Below, one piece after another: positions 9,993-31,596 of a DNA stretch of 32,007 nucleotides. The translations under genes and the position numbers were made by a program. The notes beneath the pieces were generated by a model. That model was not told the DNA's origin, searched no databases, and saw only the letters and a list, made by a program, of their open reading frames with translations. This DNA is from a virus: IMG/VR virus record IMGVR_UViG_3300027899_000044, positions 1 through 32,007 of that record; one strand, given 5' to 3'. Positions within the stretch are counted from its first letter, which is position 1. Each line of letters starts with the position of its first letter.

Positions 9993-11120
9993 ATGGTTAA
10001 TATTGTTAATGTACAGGTATCTCAACAGGTTGCCAGTGCGCCATCTACTCTGCAAAGAACAGGTGCATTGCTAACTCAAGGTGGTACAAACACTGCTGCA
10101 AATACTGCAACATTGCTGACTGCTGCTGCTGACTTTGTTGCAATTAAATCAAGCACCAATACATCTGCCGCTGCCGAATTACAGTCAATGGTTGATACAT
10201 TCTTTGCTCAAGGAAATGCGACTGCTGTATATGTTTTGGAATTAGGCTCTGATGGCACACCAACACCTGCTGAAGGTGTAATTGCGCTAACAACCTATAT
10301 CACTACTTATGCTGGTACAACAAGTTCTACTGGACTTGTAAGACCACGATTCTATTCATACTTAGTTCCAAAGAGCTGGGATACAGAATCGACATTTAAG
10401 TCATTAGTGGCAAACTATTCAGCACCAGCATCAGAACTTTATTTCTATATTTCTACCACGCTGACTACTTATTCAGCATGGTCGTCAGTTGGTTATAAAG
10501 CTGCATTCTGCGTAGTTCCAAGTACTTCAGCACCAACTTCTGAATTTAGTGCTGCTGCATTCTTCTATGTCTCATTGGCATATGATCCCAATGCTTCTAA
10601 CTTAGTATCTCCAATGTCATACACCTACTTGTATGGTGTAACGCCCAACAAGGCTTTAACCAATGCACAGCAAACTTCATTGTTGGCTGGTGGCATGAAC
10701 TGGATTGGTACTGGCGCAGAAGGTGGGATTTCTCTGAGCGTTATTTATGGTGGTCAATTCCTAGATTTGCATCCTTTTAACTATTGGTATGCAGTGGACT
10801 GGCTGGCTATTAACTCTCAGTTGTATCTTGCTGGGGCAGTGATTAATGGTTCAAATAATCCACAAAATCCGCTGTACTACAACCAGAATGGTATTAACAG
10901 GCTTCAGTCTGTTGCCCAATCTGTTGTAAACAACGGTATTAGCTTTGGTCTGATTTTGGCTCCTGCAACTGTAAATGCCGTGTCATTCACGACTTACGTT
11001 GCTCAGAACCCATCAGATTACTCAACTGGCACGTACAAGGGCTTGTCTCTGACGTTCGTACCAGCGAGAGGCTTCCAGAGCATTACTATTTACCTGACTG
11101 CTTCTAACATCCCAGTTTAA
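9993..11120 (+). CDS. tail sheath protein
   Basis: This is the contractile sheath subunit and the reason for calling the phage a myovirus. The 375-residue protein opens with VNIVNVQVSQQVASAPSTLQRTGALLTQGG, a start typical of short sheath proteins of small myoviruses, followed by an alpha/beta body with AADFVAIKSSTNT and WDTESTFKSLVANY. The C-terminal strand-rich end (GLSLTFVPARGFQSITIYLTA) is the part that in sheath proteins extends to neighbours and the tube. It is shorter than the T4 or P2 sheaths, fitting a minimal sheath. The ribosome site is GAGGGCG, and the tube gene follows 11 bases later, as is standard. Confidence 0.85.
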   Translation: MVNIVNVQVSQQVASAPSTLQRTGALLTQGGTNTAANTATLLTAAADFVAIKSSTNTSAAAELQSMVDTFFAQGNATAVYVLELGSDGTPTPAEGVIALTTYITTYAGTTSSTGLVRPRFYSYLVPKSWDTESTFKSLVANYSAPASELYFYISTTLTTYSAWSSVGYKAAFCVVPSTSAPTSEFSAAAFFYVSLAYDPNASNLVSPMSYTYLYGVTPNKALTNAQQTSLLAGGMNWIGTGAEGGISLSVIYGGQFLDLHPFNYWYAVDWLAINSQLYLAGAVINGSNNPQNPLYYNQNGINRLQSVAQSVVNNGISFGLILAPATVNAVSFTTYVAQNPSDYSTGTYKGLSLTFVPARGFQSITIYLTASNIPV

Positions 11121-19367: not shown

Positions 19368-21911
19368 ATGACTACATTACTATTTAAAAATAATGCTCAA
19401 AGTAAATTAGCATATGCAATTCCTGCAAATGCAACAACCGCATATTTAACATCCGGCACAGGAATCTTATTTCCTCAACCTACTACAGGTCAGGGATTTT
19501 ATTTAACATTTTATGATGCTGCTGGAACTAGCCTTGTTAATGAAATTGTTTTGGTCACTGGTATTTCTGGCGATCAAATTACCTCGATGGTTCGCGCCCA
19601 ACAAGGAACTACTGCAGTAAACTGGGCTGTCGGAACTGCTGCTGCACAACTTTATACAGCAGGTGATGCACAAGCGTTTGATCAATCTCCAGCCGATGTC
19701 ACTATTGGTTCTAGTCAAGTCACTGGTGGTACAAATGGTTATGTTCTATATAACAACAATGGCCTGTTAGGTAACAAGACAGTTATAGAATCTGTTACTG
19801 CTGGTACAGGTATTACAGTAACAAATCCAACTTCGACATCAGCTCTTGTCTCAGCAACTGGAATTCAGACTGTTTCAGGAACTACTGGGACTATTTCCGT
19901 TACTTCTGGTCAAAATCCAACTATTAATTTGCAAAGTGGCGTTGTTTCTGCTGGCACTGTTGGATCATCTGCCTTAATTCCTGTTATTACTACAGATACT
20001 TATGGCCGTGTAACTGGAGTTTCTACTGCCGCTAACCCACAAGGAACTCTTACAGGATTGTCAGTTTCTTCTTCTAATGGTTTTGCTGGAACTGTAGGCA
20101 GCGGTGCTAGTCCTGCTATTACTTTAAGCACTACTGTTGGTGCTGCTGGCAGTGAAAAATTACTAAAAGGAAATGGAACGTCTATCAGTGCTGCAACTGC
20201 CGGAACTGATTATGCCCCCGCAACGTCTGGAACTGCCTCTCAACTGCTTGCCAATAATGGATCAGGAGGATTTTCCAATGTTACTGTTGGTTCTGGTTTG
20301 TCTTTTGCTTCTGGTACTTTAAGCAACCCTACATCTGGCACTGTCACACAAGTAACTACTACAGCCCCTTTGGGTGTTACTAGCGGGACAACCACTCCAG
20401 CATTAACAATTACTCAAGCGACAACATTAACAGATGGATATTTAAGTAGTACGGACTGGAATACATTTAAAAACAAAGTATCCTCAGTTGCTTCTGCTGA
20501 TGGCAGCGTTTCTGTTACTACAACAAGTAATGCTGTTGATCTTGCTGTTGCTAGTTCTCCACAGGCAGCAACAGTAGTAATGACGGTATATAACAATACT
20601 GGCTCTACTTTAACTACAGGAACTGTTGTTTATATTCAAAGCGCATCAGGCAATTTACCTTACGTTAACAAAGCACTAGCAACATCAGATGCTACTTCTT
20701 TGGAAACATTAGGAATTGTAAAAAGCGATATTACAAATTTAAGCAGTGGAAGCGTTGTTACTTCTGGTATCGTCACTGGAATCAATACTGCTGCATATTC
20801 AGCAGGTCAAATCTTATACCTTAGTGCAACAACCGCTGGAGCTTTAACTCCAACTGCACCATCCTCTCCAAATCATTTAGTTTACGTTGCTGTCGTTGTT
20901 AATGCAGCTGCATCTGGTTCTTTGCTTGTAAATATAAAGACAAGCCTTGATTTGCATGAACTTGATGACGTAACAATTACTAGCCCTGCAAATGGACAAA
21001 CCATTATTTATGATGCTACTAATCAGATTTGGGTCAACAATACTTTAACCAGTGGTACTGGCATTAACATTACAAATAATGCTGGTGGCATTACTATTAA
21101 TAATACTGGTGTTACTTCTGTTTCTGGAACCTCTGGAAATATTGTAGTAACTGGCACAACTACTCCTACTATTAACTTAGCAACTAGCGGTGTAGGCTCT
21201 GGAAGCAGTGTAGGTTCTGCGACTTTAGTACCTGTAATCACATATGATACTTATGGAAGAATTACTGGCGTATCTACGGCAGCAGCAAATCCACAAGGTA
21301 CTGTGACTGGTGTATCGGTTGTCAGTGCAAATGGATTAGCGGGCACTGTGACTTCTGGAGCCACTCCAGCCATTACATTATCCACTTCTGTAACTGGATT
21401 ATTAAAAGGAAACGGCACTTCAATTAGTGCCGCAACTTCTGGTACAGATTATGCACCTGCCACATCAGGTGCGTATTTATTATATGGTAATGGACTAGGT
21501 GGATTTTCTAACGCAACAATCAGCACTGGACTTAGCTTTTCAGGTGGAGTTTTAAGGGCTTTACCAAGAATTGTTTCTACTAATACATTTGGATCAAATA
21601 TTTATTGGAATAGCAGTCAAGTTGATTTAGTTAGCATTTCTGCACAAGTTGGTGCAGTAACTATTGACGCTGATTCTAATCCTGTTCCTCTTAATGGACA
21701 GAAAATTATGTTCAGAATTACTGGAGGCATTGGTGGTGCAATTATTGAGTTTACAACTGGAGACTATGGTTTTGTAGGCATTGGCATTCCTTTAACATCA
21801 ATCTCTTTAGCTGCAAATACTACTGTTGTAATTGGAGCCATGTTTAATCCTCAAAGCAAAAGCACAACCGCAACTCCACGTTGGGAAGTAATTGCTATTA
21901 CTCAGGGGTAA
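19368..21911 (+). CDS. long tail fibre protein with duplicated shaft module
   Basis: This 847-residue fibre starts with the same attachment head as the preceding gene (LLFKNNAQSKLAYAIP, SGTGILFPQP, NEIVLVTGISGDQITSMVRA, AGDAQAF). The shaft is Ser/Thr/Gly-rich and beta-structured, with short repeats of T-G-T-x-x-I-x-V type. Two copies of a longer module, nucleotides about 19951-20325 and 21191-21557, both read VPVITxDTYGRxTGVSTAA, then NPQGTxTGxSV, then LLKGNGTSISAAT and GTDYAPATSG. The C-terminal 110 residues are a compact beta domain (AQVGAVTIDADSNPVPLNGQ). A host-binding role is inferred. Confidence 0.82.
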   Translation: MTTLLFKNNAQSKLAYAIPANATTAYLTSGTGILFPQPTTGQGFYLTFYDAAGTSLVNEIVLVTGISGDQITSMVRAQQGTTAVNWAVGTAAAQLYTAGDAQAFDQSPADVTIGSSQVTGGTNGYVLYNNNGLLGNKTVIESVTAGTGITVTNPTSTSALVSATGIQTVSGTTGTISVTSGQNPTINLQSGVVSAGTVGSSALIPVITTDTYGRVTGVSTAANPQGTLTGLSVSSSNGFAGTVGSGASPAITLSTTVGAAGSEKLLKGNGTSISAATAGTDYAPATSGTASQLLANNGSGGFSNVTVGSGLSFASGTLSNPTSGTVTQVTTTAPLGVTSGTTTPALTITQATTLTDGYLSSTDWNTFKNKVSSVASADGSVSVTTTSNAVDLAVASSPQAATVVMTVYNNTGSTLTTGTVVYIQSASGNLPYVNKALATSDATSLETLGIVKSDITNLSSGSVVTSGIVTGINTAAYSAGQILYLSATTAGALTPTAPSSPNHLVYVAVVVNAAASGSLLVNIKTSLDLHELDDVTITSPANGQTIIYDATNQIWVNNTLTSGTGINITNNAGGITINNTGVTSVSGTSGNIVVTGTTTPTINLATSGVGSGSSVGSATLVPVITYDTYGRITGVSTAAANPQGTVTGVSVVSANGLAGTVTSGATPAITLSTSVTGLLKGNGTSISAATSGTDYAPATSGAYLLYGNGLGGFSNATISTGLSFSGGVLRALPRIVSTNTFGSNIYWNSSQVDLVSISAQVGAVTIDADSNPVPLNGQKIMFRITGGIGGAIIEFTTGDYGFVGIGIPLTSISLAANTTVVIGAMFNPQSKSTTATPRWEVIAITQG
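19951..20325 (+). repeat. fibre shaft module, copy 1
   Basis: Encodes a segment from GTVGSSALIPVITTDTYGR through KGNGTSISAATAGTDYAPATSG to SNVTVGSGLSFASGTL. It matches copy 2 at 21191-21557 over most of its length at protein level and in blocks at DNA level. Boundaries are approximate. Confidence 0.65.
21191..21557 (+). repeat. fibre shaft module, copy 2
   Basis: Second copy of the shaft module, with SVGSATLVPVITYDTYGRI and the shared KGNGTSISAAT and GTDYAPATSG blocks, ending SNATISTGLSFSGGVL. It is slightly shorter than copy 1: the AAGSEK insertion before LLKGNG is absent. Confidence 0.65.
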
Positions 21912-21914
21912 TGT

Positions 21915-22079
21915 ATGACTAGAATTCCATTTTCATTCGATTCTCAATACGGAAAATTTAGTGATTGTTTGGTTTTTCCAGATGATCAAACATTCACCGA
22001 AGAAGAACTGACTGCCATGAAAGAACAAAGATTTCAAACTTGGCTTAGTTTTGTACAAGAATCTTCAGAAGCTGAATAA
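21915..22079 (+). CDS. small conserved fibre-cassette protein (54 aa)
   Basis: A 54-codon frame fills the gap between the long fibre and the next spike gene. It starts MTRIPFSFDSQYGKFSDCLV, continues FPDDQTFTEEELTAMKEQRF and ends with a Trp-containing helix and an acidic tail. The pattern (M-x-R-I-P-F, then P-D-D-x-x-x-T-x-x-E/D-x-x-x-M-K-x-x-R-x-x-x-W) is one I know from small proteins beside tail fibre genes in proteobacterial phages. CAGGGG (21903-21908) precedes it and its stop overlaps the next start as TAATG. Function unknown; a fibre-assembly helper is a guess. Confidence 0.7.
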   Translation: MTRIPFSFDSQYGKFSDCLVFPDDQTFTEEELTAMKEQRFQTWLSFVQESSEAE

Positions 22080-24466
22080 TGGCTACTTATTATTGGGTTG
22101 GTGGATCAGGAAATTGGACATCTGATGATCCTTCACATTGGTCTCTATCTTCTGGTGGTACTGGCTTTGCTGGTGTTCCTACGATCGATGACAATGTTAT
22201 TTTTGATTTAGCAGGAACAATTACAGTTACCATTATTGGAACAGTTAACTGCAATAATTTTTCTGTTGCAGGAAGTACTTATATTTTTGTTGGATCGGTA
22301 GGTGAGATTAACGTAGGTGGTAGTCTAGATTTACTTACTGGAACTCTATGGAATTTTACTGGTGGCTTGTGGTTTATAAATACTCAATATGGCAGATGGA
22401 TTTGGACAAATGGAGTTGTCATAAACAGTCCTATATATATTAATTCCCCTGTTGATATAGGATATCTTAATTACTATGCTATTAAATTAGGTTCTGCTTT
22501 ATTAACAACAAAAAATATTTACATTCTTGCTGGTAAATTAATTACTGGCGATGCAGATACCTATTACTTTAATTTAACAGCTACCGCGTCAGATATATAT
22601 GTTGCCGCTAATGCAGCATTTGATTTTTCTTATGTCACTGTTGTATGCAACAACTTTACATGCGAAGCAACAAGTTATATTAATGCTTCTGGATCGTTAT
22701 TATCAGCAAATCAATCTTCTTCTATTGTCACTGCTCCATGTCAATTATTAGGCACAGTAAGATTTGCAACTTCTGGCTCTGGTTTATTAAAAACTGGTTC
22801 TCAATATGGAATTAGCATCGATTACAATACCACAACATTTGGAGATCCATCTCATAATGTAGCGTTAACTAATCCCTCTGATATTCAATATGTTGGTTAT
22901 TTTGATAGCATTGCTAACGGAGTTGTGCCTATAGATGGAACTTATATTCCATCTGGAACAAAGATTATACATGTTAGCTATTCTTCAACCCTTTCAACTT
23001 ATATTTTATATCTTTCTAATGCAGTAACCACTGCAAGTGTTATTACAAATAGTCCAGCAGCAATTACTCAAGCTGTATTATTGGAAGAATTAAATGTTCC
23101 AACTCCTTTAACAAATGGTATTACAACTGTATCGTTAGAAGGGTATGTTGGTACATTAACTATTAATGCTAATGGCTCACAAACTAATAGAAGAACATTT
23201 ATAAAATCAAATACGTTATTTAAACAAGTAACTCTTTGGTCTTATGGATTTTCTTCTGCTCCGCAAAATATAGATTTTAGAGACATCAATTTAGATGGAG
23301 CGGCTGCTGGAACAACAATTACCAATGGTGGAAATTGTCAAGGAAATAATGGAATAGATTTTCCATCAGGTAAAACTGTGTACATGAAAGCTAGTACTAC
23401 TACCGTCTTATGGTCTGATACGGTATGGGCAACATCTAGTGGTGGCACTCCTGCATTAGCCAATTTTCCGTTGGCACAGGATGAAGCAATTATTGACAAT
23501 AATAGTTACATTTATGGATTAACTGTAAATTTCACTAAAACGTGGAATATAGGAATTCTGAAATTAACAAAATATTCTCAGCCTTTAAATATTAATATTT
23601 CTATTTCTATTAATATTTATCGTCATTTTTATAGCAATATGTCTGTAAATTTTGGCAACTATGGTGCTCCAATTTATTTTATTAATAACGATATATATTG
23701 GAATAATATTAATGCCAATGGCGCTGTTTTAAATAATCCTGTTCAATTTTTATCTTATACAACAGGTGGTGGTGAGATAGATTTCAATAGCGCATTTATT
23801 TGTACTAAAGACATTAGTTTTATTGGTGCAACATATATAGCCGGATATGATGTTGTCACTCCTACATATTTTACATACACAATTACTGCTCCAAATATTA
23901 CTTTTAATAATAATTGCTCAAATGGTCAAAATCATTATATCGACAATCTGCAATTTGTTTGCACAGGCAGCAATTTTAATATTTTAAATCGTCCAAATTA
24001 TTTTAGTGGCGGTAACTGTGAGGTTAGATTTACATCATCTTCAACAAAAACTTTTAATTCTGTAGATGCAATATATGCAACAAGTAGTGCTATTGGCACT
24101 GGATTGGCACTCTGCAATGCAGGGTCAGGCGCATTAATTGTTGATGGAAATTATACTTTTCAAGACATATATAATCTTACATCTCCTACAACTTTTGAAT
24201 TTGGTTCAAGTAAAACAATTAAAATATATAATTTTAATATTCAAGGAACTGACGGCAATTATGTCTTTTTAACTAATACCAATATTGATAACTTTGTATT
24301 ACAAAACCTACAATCTACCTCCATTAATACTTATTACTTACAAATATTAAAATCTTCTGCTACAGGTGGCTTAGGATGGAATGCATCTAACAGCATCGAT
24401 TTAGGCGGCAACTATGGGTGGACTTTTGGATACGGACAGAAAGGTAACTTTCTAATGTTCTTCTAA
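22079..24466 (+). CDS. beta-helix-type tail spike or fibre
   Basis: This 795-residue protein opens with ATYYWVGGSGNWTSDDPSHW, SLSSGGTGFAGVPTIDDNVI, a module (W-V-G-G-S-G-N-W ... V-P-T-x-x-D-x-V-x-F-D) common at the start of large phage and bacterial surface beta-proteins. The rest is long runs of short strands rich in Asn, Ile, Tyr and Thr (GTITVTIIGTVNCNNFSVAG and similar), typical of a right-handed beta-helix. The end has SNSIDLGGNYGWTFGYGQKG. No lyase or hydrolase site could be identified. It is coupled to the small 54-residue gene. Receptor binding is inferred from location and shape. Confidence 0.72.
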   Translation: MATYYWVGGSGNWTSDDPSHWSLSSGGTGFAGVPTIDDNVIFDLAGTITVTIIGTVNCNNFSVAGSTYIFVGSVGEINVGGSLDLLTGTLWNFTGGLWFINTQYGRWIWTNGVVINSPIYINSPVDIGYLNYYAIKLGSALLTTKNIYILAGKLITGDADTYYFNLTATASDIYVAANAAFDFSYVTVVCNNFTCEATSYINASGSLLSANQSSSIVTAPCQLLGTVRFATSGSGLLKTGSQYGISIDYNTTTFGDPSHNVALTNPSDIQYVGYFDSIANGVVPIDGTYIPSGTKIIHVSYSSTLSTYILYLSNAVTTASVITNSPAAITQAVLLEELNVPTPLTNGITTVSLEGYVGTLTINANGSQTNRRTFIKSNTLFKQVTLWSYGFSSAPQNIDFRDINLDGAAAGTTITNGGNCQGNNGIDFPSGKTVYMKASTTTVLWSDTVWATSSGGTPALANFPLAQDEAIIDNNSYIYGLTVNFTKTWNIGILKLTKYSQPLNINISISINIYRHFYSNMSVNFGNYGAPIYFINNDIYWNNINANGAVLNNPVQFLSYTTGGGEIDFNSAFICTKDISFIGATYIAGYDVVTPTYFTYTITAPNITFNNNCSNGQNHYIDNLQFVCTGSNFNILNRPNYFSGGNCEVRFTSSSTKTFNSVDAIYATSSAIGTGLALCNAGSGALIVDGNYTFQDIYNLTSPTTFEFGSSKTIKIYNFNIQGTDGNYVFLTNTNIDNFVLQNLQSTSINTYYLQILKSSATGGLGWNASNSIDLGGNYGWTFGYGQKGNFLMFF

Positions 24467-24552: not shown

Positions 24553-24951
24553 ATGCAGTTAACCCTTACCACATTGCAAAACAGACCAGTCGTCTACAAG
24601 ATGATTCGGTTTGACTCTGCCGATCCTGCAATCAGACAGATTGTGGAAACTGTATATATTGATTCTTTAGCAGATGCGGAGACTGCTGCTGGAAGTGATT
24701 GGATTGCTGGTAAAGCAATGGGCGTTGAATGCAGAGAATTTCAAGCTGGAGATATATTAGAATTATCAGATGGCAAGATAGCCGTTCTGACTAATGCCGC
24801 TGGCGCTAAAGTTGTATTTGATGCTAATGAATACACAGGAACATTGCCTTCCATTAGCGTAGATCAAACAATCATAGACGCAATTCAATATAGACCAAAT
24901 CAACCTAGAATACAGTCTCTTGTAAATGGGGAAATGACATTATGGCCGTAG
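24553..24951 (+). CDS. hypothetical protein, tail fibre region
   Basis: This 132-residue protein is not recognised. It is acidic, with likely helices around RQIVETVYIDSLADAETAA and a small beta part (GVECREFQAGDILELSDGKI, VLTNAAGAKVVFDANEYTG). It follows an AT-rich leader, has no clear Shine-Dalgarno site, and overlaps the next gene by 10 bases, so it is probably the first gene of a new transcription unit. Position suggests a fibre-associated or accessory virion protein. No motif decides this. Confidence 0.6.
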   Translation: MQLTLTTLQNRPVVYKMIRFDSADPAIRQIVETVYIDSLADAETAAGSDWIAGKAMGVECREFQAGDILELSDGKIAVLTNAAGAKVVFDANEYTGTLPSISVDQTIIDAIQYRPNQPRIQSLVNGEMTLWP

Positions 24952-25787
24952 CATATGCATCCCCTCCGTTAAGGTCTGATTGCCCAAGTTTTTTTCCATC
25001 TTCTTGGTCTTTTTCATATACCAATAATGGTAATGCAATAGCGTTAGTGGCATGGGCTATAGAAAATAATACCTATGATCCTCCACACATGGCAGCAACC
25101 TACAACGGTTCTTCATTTACGCAAGATTTTTTTATTAGTGATGGGATTTGGAACGGAATAGGCTGGACTGGATTGCATTTACTAAATGCAGCTTCAGGTT
25201 CACATACTTTAGTTATTTCTATTAATCCTTTAACTGGCGCTGGTGTAGCGGATAATATTGGCGCTTATGTTGTGTCTGTTTCTGGAGCCAGCACAACTGC
25301 ATCTGTATTAAGCAATGCAAGTGCTTATGATTATATTGGTGGAGCAGATGCAACTATAACCGCCCCTGCTGTTGCCATGCCATCTCGTGTTAATGATTTG
25401 GTTATTGGATTTGCTGATCTAAACTCAGCATATTCACCAATCACTGCATTAACTGGAACAAACATTACGCCTATAGCAACTTCCGCAGGGTTTTGGTCAA
25501 GTTATACTGCTGGCTCATCTCCGTCTGTAAATGTACAGCAAACTTTCTTTTTTGATTGGAATGCAGGTGAATATGGTGTTGGCGCTGCTACGATGGGATT
25601 TTCTTTTTCTCCATCAGGCGGCACTTCTAATCCTGCAAATCCACCAGATCAAGTAACTAATTCTGCTGCTGCAATTCCGATTCGTATAGTTAATCCATAC
25701 GTTTCTCCAACATACCCTGCTAATCCTCCAGACCAAATTACTAACGATAGAGCGGCTATTCCCGTCTATTTCGTAGTCAAACCTTAA
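24942..25787 (+). CDS. beta-sandwich tail protein with two C-terminal NPP/AAIPV peptides
   Basis: This 281-residue protein has a jelly-roll-like N-terminal body (residues about 20-220, with WSFSYTNNGNAIALVAWAIE and TGLHLLNAASGSHTLVISIN). The last 55 residues hold two copies of a peptide: PANPPDQVTNSAAAIPIRI and PANPPDQITNDRAAIPVYF. Near-identical peptides form the N-termini of the next two genes. The ATG at 24942 has GGGGA (24928-24932) upstream. Carbohydrate binding or decoration is plausible for the jelly-roll. Nothing shows a catalytic site. Confidence 0.65.
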   Translation: MAVAYASPPLRSDCPSFFPSSWSFSYTNNGNAIALVAWAIENNTYDPPHMAATYNGSSFTQDFFISDGIWNGIGWTGLHLLNAASGSHTLVISINPLTGAGVADNIGAYVVSVSGASTTASVLSNASAYDYIGGADATITAPAVAMPSRVNDLVIGFADLNSAYSPITALTGTNITPIATSAGFWSSYTAGSSPSVNVQQTFFFDWNAGEYGVGAATMGFSFSPSGGTSNPANPPDQVTNSAAAIPIRIVNPYVSPTYPANPPDQITNDRAAIPVYFVVKP

Positions 25788-25799
25788 TGAGACAAAATA

Positions 25800-27638
25800 A
25801 TGCCAGTCAGTCCATCGAATCCACCGAACTATACAAATAATGCTAATGCTGCTATTCCTGTTTACTTAGCAAGCAGCGGTGGAGTTCAGCCATCTGCCGG
25901 AACATACACTTCATCAACATTGCCAAGTGCTTCATTATATTCTGCTGGCACAAGTGCATATACAACCGATATGGGATTTGTATATACCGACGGATCAAAA
26001 TGGATTAATGAAAATGATTATTTTGTTGCCAAAACACGAACAAGTTTAAATACAACTCAGCCTGTATATCAAGAAAACTTTTACGGTGCGACCAAGATAT
26101 TTAGCGGATATACCGATGCGCAGACATTTTTAACTGTATCAGGCATTGCACCTAATGGTATTGAAATAGGTTGGAATGCTGGCATTACATCAACTAATAG
26201 TTGGTATGTAGGTGTACAAAAGACCTTTACAACGCCTTGGGATTTGTCTAATACGGATCGAATTCAATATGAATTTGGTTGGTATAAAAATGCACCATTG
26301 ACACGAATAAACTTGATCTTAGTTGACGGTTCTGCAAATTCAATGATATTTAGCGGATTGTTAAATGGTTCTGAAAAACCGCAGCAATGGTCACAAGTAT
26401 TGCTCAAATCTCAATTTGCTCAATTTGCTGGTAGTACATTTAACTGGAACAATGTAGTAAGGACAGATGTTAGATTTGTAACTAGTGGTGTTACCTCTGA
26501 CGATTCACGCAGTATGGCTTTGTACCGAGTTACTGCTGGTGGATATACAAAACCAACTGTTGTCATTAGTTGTGATGATATTTATTCTGGTGACGGCGTT
26601 GGTACTGATGCGCTTGGACTTAATGCAATGCTTCCAACTTGCATTTCTCGAAATGTAAAAGGCACACATTTTGTAACAGACACAGAAATACTGAATGGTG
26701 GTCAAGGTACGTCATATAAAATGACGCAAACTCAAGTTCAGGCTTGGTGTAACGCAGGATGGAGTATCTGCTGTCATAACATTCAGCACAGACCATTTGC
26801 TATTGATGTAGCCAGTTATTCTAAGACTACATCAGTGGTCACAATGGTAATTAACTGGGGATCATCTACTAATACAAAAGGAACACCAACAGGATTTACA
26901 TTAGTTGCGGGAGATACAATCACTGTTTCTCGATGCGGATTTAATAACGTAAATGGAACTTATACTGTTTTAACAGTCACACAAGGGTCAGCCACAACCA
27001 CAATTACTTATGATGTAGGCAATTCAACTGCTGTACCTACGGTTTCTGTTGGCGATGGTGGCGTAATTAGTGTCAACAAGTACAGCGTCAAAAATGACAA
27101 TCAGTTGCTAAGAACAATGATTAAGCAACAAGGGTACAAAACCAATGATGCAATCATGGCATATACCTATGGTCAAAATGATGAAGTTGCCAGAACTGCA
27201 CTCGCCGAAAATGGCGTTCGTATTGCTAGAACAACTGTTGGGAATGGCACAAACCCTGAATACTACACAGGATTACAATTAGGAGTTACTCAGATCAGCA
27301 GAAAAAATGGTCTTGTTTTGTTTTCAAAAAATACAACAAGTACCACTGTTGCTCAATTAAACAGCAGGATGCTAACAATTCCCACCTATGGATATACAGG
27401 CGTTTTATCAAGCGTTCAAAGCATTATGGCATCTCTAATACAAACAGGCGGTTTGTTCTCTATTTATTGGCATGGAGAAGCATTGACGGACGGTGCAAAC
27501 ATGACAGATCAATCACAAATTGATTTGATCAACTATCTTGCTGATCTGCGTGATGCTGGGACAATTGATTTGATTGCGTTTGACCAATTAGATGCAATGA
27601 TTAGTCAAAGATTAAATCCTAACGACATTCAAAATTAA
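25800..27638 (+). CDS. tail protein with CE4 polysaccharide deacetylase domain
   Basis: This 612-residue protein starts with the shared peptide (SPSNPPNYTNNANAAIPVYL). Residues about 55-250 look like a beta-sandwich module that may bind glycan. From residue 251 a NodB/CE4-like deacetylase begins: motif 1 KPTVVISCDD (D259, D260), motif 2 CCHNIQH (H326, H330 as metal ligands), a Y-T-Y-G-Q segment (455-459) followed by VARTALAENGVRIARTT, and a late W-H-G-E (H558) as candidate catalytic His. Between motif 2 and the next helix, about residues 336-432 form an inserted beta domain (SVVTMVINWGSST, DTITVSRCGFNNVNGTYTVL). Such an enzyme would remove acetyl groups from capsule or O-antigen. Substrate is unknown. 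Confidence 0.72.
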   Translation: MPVSPSNPPNYTNNANAAIPVYLASSGGVQPSAGTYTSSTLPSASLYSAGTSAYTTDMGFVYTDGSKWINENDYFVAKTRTSLNTTQPVYQENFYGATKIFSGYTDAQTFLTVSGIAPNGIEIGWNAGITSTNSWYVGVQKTFTTPWDLSNTDRIQYEFGWYKNAPLTRINLILVDGSANSMIFSGLLNGSEKPQQWSQVLLKSQFAQFAGSTFNWNNVVRTDVRFVTSGVTSDDSRSMALYRVTAGGYTKPTVVISCDDIYSGDGVGTDALGLNAMLPTCISRNVKGTHFVTDTEILNGGQGTSYKMTQTQVQAWCNAGWSICCHNIQHRPFAIDVASYSKTTSVVTMVINWGSSTNTKGTPTGFTLVAGDTITVSRCGFNNVNGTYTVLTVTQGSATTTITYDVGNSTAVPTVSVGDGGVISVNKYSVKNDNQLLRTMIKQQGYKTNDAIMAYTYGQNDEVARTALAENGVRIARTTVGNGTNPEYYTGLQLGVTQISRKNGLVLFSKNTTSTTVAQLNSRMLTIPTYGYTGVLSSVQSIMASLIQTGGLFSIYWHGEALTDGANMTDQSQIDLINYLADLRDAGTIDLIAFDQLDAMISQRLNPNDIQN

Positions 27639-27645
27639 AATTTAA

Positions 27646-28242
27646 ATGCCTATTACTCCATCAAATCCACCAAATTATACCAATAATCCTGCTGGTGCTA
27701 TCCCTGTCTATATTGCTTCTGGCGATATAAACACTGGCTTTGTGTATGTTAAAAACACACCCACTTCATTAACTCCAACTTCTACGGCTAATCAACCAGT
27801 ATTAGGATTGACCAATGGAGTGGCTTTAGCTGCAAATACTCGGTATTACGTTGAAGGGCAATTTGTGTTGTCGCAAATTGGAAATGCCAATAACCATACT
27901 GAAACTGTTGGCTTTACGTCCTCTACTTCTCTAGCGGCTATTAATGTACAAATTATTAGAAATAGGAATGATAGCCCATCTACTTCTTTTTCTAGCGTTA
28001 CATTGAGCAATACAGCAGCATTAACGGCATTGGCTTATACCGCCACTGGCAATGCTGACTATGTAAACTGCTACAACTTTTCTGGTTATGTTGTTACAAA
28101 CGCTGCTGCAACCAATCTAAATCCAATATTAGTATTTGGTTCCAATTCTGGCACTTCATCTACAGTATTGGAAAATGCGTACTTTAAATTTACCCCCAAT
28201 GGGGCTTCTGGCTCTAACTTTGTTGTTGGTACTTGGTCTTAA
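27646..28242 (+). CDS. jelly-roll tail-associated protein with N-terminal NPP/AIPV peptide
   Basis: This 198-residue protein begins with the shared peptide (TPSNPPNYTNNPAGAIPVYI) and continues as one beta domain of TNF-like look: VALAANTRYYVEGQFVLSQIG, AALTALAYTATGNADYVNCY and a final SGSNFVVGTWS. Similar C-terminal domains occur in phage virion proteins that cap fibres or decorate heads. The gene starts 7 bases after the deacetylase stop and has no strong ribosome site, so it probably depends on translation through the upstream gene. Role inferred. Confidence 0.65.
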   Translation: MPITPSNPPNYTNNPAGAIPVYIASGDINTGFVYVKNTPTSLTPTSTANQPVLGLTNGVALAANTRYYVEGQFVLSQIGNANNHTETVGFTSSTSLAAINVQIIRNRNDSPSTSFSSVTLSNTAALTALAYTATGNADYVNCYNFSGYVVTNAAATNLNPILVFGSNSGTSSTVLENAYFKFTPNGASGSNFVVGTWS

Positions 28243-28580: not shown

Positions 28581-29096
28581 ATGATTACTTTATTTTCTAC
28601 TTTAATCTCTTTCTTAGCTGGCGGCCTTCCAAAGGTATTGGATTTCTTTCAAGACAAATCTGATAAGAAACAAGAACTGGCACTGGCTCAGTTACAGACT
28701 GCTCATGAACTAGAAATGCGTAAGCAAGGTTATGAGGCTCAACAGAAAATAGAAGAAATCAGATTGGATCAAATACAGGTACAATCTGCTGCACAGACTC
28801 AACAGGTTTTGATTGGCGCACAGCAAGCGGAGATGCAAGCCCTATACGACAACGACAAAGCTCTTGGAGAAGGTACGTCAACATGGGTTAAAAATGTTCG
28901 TGCGCTTGTGCGTCCAATCATTACTTTTGGCTTCTTTGGATTACTTTGCTTTGTAGATATTGGCCTGTTTTACTTTGGTTGGCAGAAGGGCACTGACTTC
29001 ACCGTGTTAGCCGATATGCTGTGGGATAATGAGACTCAAGCGTTATTTGCAAGTATTATTGCCTTTCACTTTGGCGGTCGTGCTTTCGGCAAATGA
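28581..29096 (+). CDS. holin with three membrane segments
   Basis: This 171-residue protein fits the GTA-type three-TM holin family. An N-terminal hydrophobic start (LFSTLISFLAGGLPKVLDF) leads into a long charged helix (residues about 25-85, Lys/Gln/Glu-rich), then two membrane segments: VRPIITFGFFGLLCFVDIGL and ALFASIIAFHFGGRAFG. The V-R-P-I-I start of the second segment and the F-G-G-R-A-F-G end are the recognisable marks. It has a GGAG site and overlaps the lysozyme start by ATGA. It should open the inner membrane for the endolysin, which has no export signal of its own. Confidence 0.8.
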   Translation: MITLFSTLISFLAGGLPKVLDFFQDKSDKKQELALAQLQTAHELEMRKQGYEAQQKIEEIRLDQIQVQSAAQTQQVLIGAQQAEMQALYDNDKALGEGTSTWVKNVRALVRPIITFGFFGLLCFVDIGLFYFGWQKGTDFTVLADMLWDNETQALFASIIAFHFGGRAFGK

Positions 29097-29575
29097 AAAC
29101 GTCAGATAAAGCAAAGGAACTGATTAAGCATCACGAAGGCGTGAAAAACCGCCCATACCTTTGTCCGGCTAAAATCTGGACAATAGGTGTTGGTCATGTT
29201 CTTTATCCTGAACAAGCAAAGTTAAAGATAGAAGATCGTAAAAACATAACGCTGCTGATGGTAGACAACCGTGTCTGGACTATGGAGGAAATCAATGCAT
29301 TACTTAATGCAGACCTTGCGCGTTTTGAGCGAGGTGTGGCTAGACTCTGTCCTGCTTCTGTTGGTAATCAAAACCATTTCGACGCACTGGTCAGTTTTTC
29401 CTTTAATGTAGGTCTGGGTAACCTGCAAAACTCAGGGCTTAGATTTAAGTACAATCGTGGCGAATTTGAGTATGCCGCTAACGAATTCCTAAAATGGACT
29501 AAGGCTGGCGGTAAAGAACTAAAAGGATTAGTCAACCGCCGCCAAGATGAGCGTAATTTATTTCTAGGTAGATAA
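29093..29575 (+). CDS. endolysin, T4-type lysozyme (GH24)
   Basis: This 160-residue muramidase breaks the N-acetylmuramic acid to N-acetylglucosamine bond of peptidoglycan. Its N-terminal catalytic lobe carries the GH24 triad spacing E15-x8-C24-x5-T30 (HHEGVKNRPYL, C, PAKIWTIGVGH). The usual Asp of the triad is Cys here. Asp/Cys alternation is known in this family. The later part has FDALVSFSFNVGLGNLQNSG and the end GLVNRRQDERNLFL, both standard GH24 blocks. There is no signal peptide or signal-anchor, so export depends on the upstream holin, whose stop it overlaps. Confidence 0.93.
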   Translation: MKTSDKAKELIKHHEGVKNRPYLCPAKIWTIGVGHVLYPEQAKLKIEDRKNITLLMVDNRVWTMEEINALLNADLARFERGVARLCPASVGNQNHFDALVSFSFNVGLGNLQNSGLRFKYNRGEFEYAANEFLKWTKAGGKELKGLVNRRQDERNLFLGR

Positions 29576-30470: not shown

Positions 30471-30668
30471 ATGAATAAAGAGAAAGTACAGCAGTTATAT
30501 GACAATGTTTGGTATCGCATAGATAACGAATATACGCATGAATGTTGCGATTGTTCGTTAGTGCATACTGTTAAATATAAGTTAGAAAACGGGGTGGTTT
30601 TTATGCAATGGAACTTGAATCCTCGTGAAACTAAAAAAGCGAGGAAGATTCGTGCCCAAAATAAGTGA
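30471..30668 (+). CDS. small Cys-rich phage protein (probable zinc binder)
   Basis: This 65-residue protein contains HECCDCSLVHTVKYKLENG, where C25-C26-x-C28 is followed by a conserved L-V-H. The pattern resembles short phage proteins whose core reads C-x-D-C-G-L-V-H followed by a beta strand and a basic end (here PRETKKARKIRAQNK). Metal binding is likely but has not been shown. It is first in the rightward unit, 27 bases after the TATAAC box, and its end overlaps the next gene. The role is unknown. Confidence 0.65.
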   Translation: MNKEKVQQLYDNVWYRIDNEYTHECCDCSLVHTVKYKLENGVVFMQWNLNPRETKKARKIRAQNK

Positions 30669-31596
30669 TGCAGAGTTTGTTTCCGTTTGGAACTTGTATG
30701 GCTCACCTGCACTGGTTGCCAAGCATTTAAAAATTGATGTCCGTAGTGTCTATAGGGCAAGGGCAAAATTAGTAGATCAGGGACATGATCTTCCAACTTT
30801 CAACCATACAGGCAATAATAAGTACTTCACCCCAGACGTTGCAGCGGCAATGAAATGGGAAAAACGTAGAACACTAGAAGTAAAAAATGGATATGTCATT
30901 ATCTTTTCTGATCCTCATTTTTATCCTGACCATAACACTATTGCACAATCTGCACTCTTAACTGTCATCAAGCAGTTAAAGCCCCATGCGGTTTTATGTG
31001 GTGGGGATGCATTAGACGGCACTCAAATTGGACGGCACGATCCAACTAGAGGATGGCATCAGCCTGTAACGCTTAAAGAACAGTTGACCTGCATGTCAGA
31101 AAGCATGACTGCCATTAAGAAGGCAGCCAAAGGCGCTGTGACGATGATGACAATGGGCAATCACGATGCCCGTCTATCTCGTTATTTAGCCATGCATGCC
31201 CCTGCTGTAGAAGACCTAATTGGCACTAAACTAGAAGATTACATACCTAGCTGGCCGTTATCTTGGACTGTTGAGATTAACGGTGACACCATTCTCAGGC
31301 ATCGACACCTTGGGGGTATGCTGCACTTACAGGCTCAGAAAGCCGGATGCAACTTTGTACACGGCCATTTGCATAAGTTAGGGTGTATGGTTACCCCTCA
31401 ATATCATGGATTCAAATACTCCATTGATGCTGGAAGTCTAGCCGACCCAAAATCTGATGCATTTGACTATGCGGAAGATGGCGTCCCTTTTGTGCAAGGC
31501 TTTGCTGTGTTAAAGTTTGAAAATTATAAATTGTTATGGCCGGAGTTTTGTTACGTGCAAAACGGTGTTGCATATTTCAGGGGAAATAGAGTATGA
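30652..31596 (+). CDS. HTH-metallophosphoesterase
   Basis: This is a calcineurin-like phosphoesterase with a DNA-binding-like head. I take GTG 30652, which has GAGGAAG (30641-30647) just upstream, giving 314 residues; a GTG at 30625 would add nine and lacks a good site. Residues about 5-40 form a helix-turn-helix (FVSVWNLYGSPALVAKHLKI, then DVRSVYRARAKL). From about residue 80 the metal motifs appear in order: SDPHFYP (D-x-H), GGDALDG, MGNHDAR, VHGHLHK. These bind two metal ions for phosphoester hydrolysis. A nuclease or 3' phosphatase acting on phage or host DNA is plausible. Its substrate is not shown. Overlaps the next gene by ATGA. Confidence 0.85.
   Translation: MPKISDAEFVSVWNLYGSPALVAKHLKIDVRSVYRARAKLVDQGHDLPTFNHTGNNKYFTPDVAAAMKWEKRRTLEVKNGYVIIFSDPHFYPDHNTIAQSALLTVIKQLKPHAVLCGGDALDGTQIGRHDPTRGWHQPVTLKEQLTCMSESMTAIKKAAKGAVTMMTMGNHDARLSRYLAMHAPAVEDLIGTKLEDYIPSWPLSWTVEINGDTILRHRHLGGMLHLQAQKAGCNFVHGHLHKLGCMVTPQYHGFKYSIDAGSLADPKSDAFDYAEDGVPFVQGFAVLKFENYKLLWPEFCYVQNGVAYFRGNRV

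Follow-up and report, generated by a model that had tools for sequence, protein, structure and literature searches.

The tail-fibre locus and the shared tag

The stretch of DNA analysed here, called the window below, is a 32,007-base virus record in which PHROGs identify genes for terminase, portal, capsid, sheath and baseplate; judged from its sequence, the phage is contractile-tailed. Its capsid protein is 50–53% identical to those of Klebsiella phage Chronis, Escherichia phage Rac-SA53 and Yersinia and Pantoea phages, and 79–90% identical to its counterparts in 80 environmental viral contigs. The gene studied in this work (25800..27638, + strand) has an ATG start, is intact and encodes 612 amino acids (aa). 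It closes the tail-fibre block, with baseplate and fibre genes upstream and lysis genes downstream; its assignment to a fibre locus in the first-pass annotation agrees with this position between the baseplate/fibre genes and the endolysin gene. Upstream are a tail fibre gene (19368..21911, + strand; PHROG 8469, tail fibre N-terminus), a gene for a 795-aa fibre-locus protein (22079–24466) for which no family match was found in Pfam, PHROGs or NCBIfam, and a gene for a 281-aa protein (24942..25787, + strand). Downstream are a gene for a 198-aa protein (27646..28242, + strand) and, in the lysis block 3' of the fibre locus, the endolysin gene (29093..29575, + strand; Phage_lysozyme). A metallophosphoesterase-like gene lies past the lysis block (30625–31596; Pfam Metallophos, PHROG 221).

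The 612-aa protein is composed of an N-terminal tag, a linker, a beta-rich region and a NodB/CE4 domain split by an insert. The tag (residues 1–24, MPVSPSNPPNYTNNANAAIPVYLA; 25800..25871, + strand) is common to the N-terminus of the next gene product (27667–27707), and the previous gene carries two tandem copies at its C-terminal end (25641–25681 and 25725–25765). When 51 records were scanned with the tag pattern, it was also found in the records of four relatives, at the head of other small proteins, while the same pattern read backwards, used as a control, gave zero matches everywhere. The tag is probably an attachment peptide. In one of the relatives (G002; L098, 9216–9425) a 69-aa open reading frame consists largely of two tags and lies beside a tagged 138-aa protein. 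Several tandem fibre genes of relatives begin with another N-terminal sequence that recurs (YANNAxTTLA...GTGxxFP; L098, 5632–9261; L100, 1946–6536; L101, 2384–4001; L102, 895–10164).

A NodB domain interrupted between motifs 2 and 3

The region that precedes the catalytic domain (residues ~90–245; 26067..26534, + strand) is beta-rich by inspection and has no assigned family. The NodB domain itself is in two parts, residues 250–333 (26547..26798, + strand), where the Pfam family PF01522 (Polysacc_deac_1) matches, and residues ~434–600 (27099..27599, + strand). With the whole protein as query, PF01522 scores 17.7 bits, below its cut-off of 23.1, and aligns with the first half of the domain only; when residues 341–428 are omitted from the query the score rises to 26.8 bits and the match covers profile positions 6–123 of 124. 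A similar result was obtained with hhalign and a profile of 20 viral NodB sequences from which the window's own protein was excluded: the insert-less domain aligns over 206 columns with a probability of 95.7% (E 1e-8), and the DD, H...H, YxYG and last H are all paired, whereas with the insert kept the probability is 64.9% and only residues 251–331 are aligned. The C-terminal half of the protein is, on these alignments, a diverged and interrupted NodB/CE4 domain. The first-pass annotation had recognised such a domain from its motifs, and this identification was borne out by Pfam, HMMER and hhalign comparisons of the domain in intact and insert-less form, with the motifs in the order it had given.

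The place of the interruption was located with a sliding control, in which an 86-residue excision was moved along the domain and the remainder was scored with an HMM of 12 other phage/viral NodB domains. The intact domain scores 12.8 bits. Excisions starting at about residues 331–350 raise the score to 20.6–22.8 bits, and the rise is limited to those starts; elsewhere, excision lowers the score or leaves it near the intact value (~1.5–17 bits), and among 234 scored shuffles the highest value is 4.8 bits. Because the score is gained only with cuts in this interval, the protein carries a NodB domain whose motifs 2 and 3 are separated by an insert of about 86 aa (residues ~345–430; 26832..27089, + strand). 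Its boundaries are uncertain by about 14 residues, the segment lying somewhere between 335–420 and 349–434. An insertion of about 95 residues at 336–432 had been proposed on first reading; its existence and its place are borne out, and its length and limits are revised to these values. Motifs 2 and 3 are 126 residues apart in this protein, compared with 25–49 residues in 34 of 39 other phage/viral NodB domains, and the outliers, at 62–107 residues, include classic proteins in which the regular expression may match a later site. Two other viral NodB domains (L168 and L156) carry additional, shorter segments close to this position, and for this reason the insertion site seems permissive.

A possible source for the insert was met in the tail sheath. 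The window sheath (9993–11120, 375 aa) and those of its close relatives L003, L004 and L005 are without a beta module, about 75 aa long, which splits the sheaths of almost all other relatives. Those sheaths are mostly of 434–446 aa (sheath open reading frames L003–L081 and L097); the Rac-SA53 sheath has a diverged copy of the module. That the insert is a copy of this module moved into the deacetylase, which would be compatible with a deacetylase function, was an attractive early lead: the insert alone matches the sheath module in three relatives (E 0.0015–0.0026 per genome, 26–27% identity) and weakly matches an Rctr197k protein taken to be a sheath (37.8%, E 2), and with a set of sheath modules hhalign gives a probability of 70%, higher than for 200 shuffles and for 70 other tiles. 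This set included sequences picked for their likeness to the insert, however, and when these are removed the probability drops to 6–12%; in addition, a 42-sequence HMMER profile of the module scores 1.8 bits against the insert, below the best shuffles. The lead was therefore not upheld, and we regard a sheath origin of the insert as doubtful. It is more doubtful still that a beta module from sheaths was moved into a catalytic NodB domain, which would give a virion enzyme with an exchangeable module as the rim of its active site.

Active-site residues and predicted structure

The four motifs lie where they had been noted from the sequence, CDD at 258–260, HNIQH at 326–330, YTYGQ at 455–459 and HGE at 558–560. 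Motif 1 (S-C-D259-D260, residues 257–260; 26568..26579, + strand) reads SCDD in place of TFDD, and both the base D and the metal D are kept; this variant, also part of the first description, is seen in a 21-row alignment in which both D residues are invariant, as are the two histidines of motif 2, H326 and H330. In motif 2 (H(S/T)xxH; here H326-N-I-Q-H330; 26775..26789, + strand) both metal histidines are thus kept and the S/T is replaced by N. Motif 3 is RxxPY, or AYPYG in many phage relatives; AYTYG (residues 454–458; 27159..27173, + strand) aligns with it, but the P is replaced by T. In motif 5 (HGE, in the context SIYWHGE; 27471..27479, + strand) H558 pairs with the catalytic histidine of relatives. 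The largely conserved GxEIGxH that precedes motif 2 is also altered: in the same 21-row alignment its nearly invariant E and G are S and C in this protein (GWSIC), a deviation absent from the first-pass annotation. As read from the alignment, the metal and catalytic residues are present and their surroundings are unusual.

Structure prediction with AlphaFold2 (AF2) from the single sequence was unusable (pLDDT 31.7), and an alignment of 20 viral NodB domains was used. Owing to the insert, motif 3 was put in the wrong place by MAFFT for most sets of homologues, and the set used was selected among 900 random subsets for its motif placement. This selection, like the composition of the alignment from NodB sequences, is a bias in favour of a NodB answer. 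On this motif-selected alignment the model has a mean pLDDT of 58 and a pTM of 0.65, with alternating strands and helices. Its best PDB match by Foldseek is the peptidoglycan deacetylase PdaC (6h8l, probability 1.00, E 3.7e-3), and minor tail proteins of Arthrobacter phages rank among its top viral hits. The predicted order of strands and helices fits a NodB barrel, and since the homologue subset was chosen so that the motifs align, we take the model as supportive, not independent. The NodB barrel with an insert that had been anticipated is thus recovered in part: the NodB-like fold is predicted, and on this motif-selected alignment it does not contradict the first description, but most of the insert, like residues 481–533, is below pLDDT 50.

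Relatives, proposed function and meaning

Searches of phages, plasmids, viral contigs and bacterial genomes (two genome scans) gave no close homologue of the protein. A PF01522 match was present in none of the 50 phage relatives found via the capsid protein, many of whose records are fragments, and the NodB gene therefore seems to have been acquired by this lineage specifically, at a site that varies. A consensus CE4 query gave no yield among viral contigs; it matched 104 phage records, among which are many Gordonia genes with the annotation 'minor tail protein' or 'glucosaminyl deacetylase'. The first-pass annotation had described deacetylases as less common on tail spikes, a view at odds with these 104 records and with the presence of such a protein on the capsid turrets of HFTV1 (PMC12494034). 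Virion or tail enzymes of this kind are already known, and the present one is ordinary in kind and unusual in detail.

The HFTV1 turret head protein (THP, gp31; PDB 8qpg/8qpq) has a galactose-binding-like and a deacetylase-like domain with Zn sites, and its authors suggest that it binds and modifies glycans during attachment (PMC12494034); the viral NodB profile finds it with an E-value of 7.4e-10. THP is a virion protein of solved structure with a C-terminal NodB deacetylase-like domain after a binding-like domain, an arrangement comparable to that proposed here, but it is placed on archaeal capsid turrets and not in a tail locus, and the accessible description mentions no insert between motifs 2 and 3, compared with about 86 aa here (PMC12494034). 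Residues ~90–245 appear to occupy the position that the galactose-binding-like domain has in THP (PMC12494034). In the Gordonia and Arthrobacter phage minor tail proteins (glucosaminyl deacetylase) NodB also follows another domain within a tail-gene block, but these proteins lack the insert, have a motif 3 of the AYPNG/AYPAG type and are 14–21% identical to the window protein; a profile of their N-terminal regions found no real match in it. The bacterial CE4 deacetylases PdaC and PgaB/BpsB are alike in fold and motifs but are cellular enzymes, and the matched PdaC chain, of 206 residues, has no room for such an insert. The Aristophanes tailspike gp41, shown by experiment to deacetylate the host capsule at adsorption, has a similar action in another family, being of the SGNH hydrolase fold and not CE4 (PMC8471582).

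We propose that the gene probably encodes a virion-associated accessory protein of the fibre locus, a NodB/CE4 deacetylase that acts on a host surface glycan at adsorption. The N-terminal tag, common to the neighbours, would most likely fix the protein to the tail or fibre; the middle region and/or the insert would position the host glycan; and the putative metal site of D260, H326 and H330, with D259 as base and H558, would take acetyl groups off the glycan during adsorption. The insert would lengthen the loop after motif 2, near the rim of the active site, where it probably tunes substrate recognition. In favour of a deacetylase we count the NodB tests with and without the insert, the invariant D/D/H/H, the AF2 model and its Foldseek matches, the locus, the tag and the precedents; against it count the deviations in GxEIG and in the P of motif 3, the bias of the AF2 alignment, the existence of silent CE4 relatives, and the lack, among the phages, plasmids, viral contigs and bacterial genomes searched, of a close homologue that would show whether its own family keeps the site.

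These same deviations suggest another reading, in which a NodB fold has kept its metal site, lost catalysis and become a glycan-binding receptor binder, with the insert in the binding face. Such a protein is conceivable because the conserved GxEIG beside motif 2 reads GWSIC, and the change of AYPYG to AYTYG points the same way; catalytically silent CE4 relatives, BA0330/BA0331, are reported (PMC4505593). All five residues expected for metal binding and catalysis (D259, D260, H326, H330 and H558) are present, however, and we consider this reading unlikely. A deacetylase acting on peptidoglycan or in lysis, and not at adsorption, would suit a gene directly before the lysis block whose best PDB fold match is a peptidoglycan deacetylase, but the N-terminal tag is common to other fibre-locus proteins and many of the homologues in phages carry the annotation 'minor tail protein', which makes this role very improbable.

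Returning to the deacetylase, what makes it interesting is its uncommon insertion, together with the altered surroundings of the active site, and not a virion deacetylase as such. Deacetylation at adsorption is known from few worked cases, and an insert of about 86 residues, tolerated directly behind the metal histidines of a NodB domain, would indicate a place at which these enzymes can gain surfaces for binding. Should the domain prove inactive, it would illustrate the reuse of an enzyme fold for receptor binding. The shared N-terminal tag, finally, suggests how accessory proteins may be swapped within one phage lineage.
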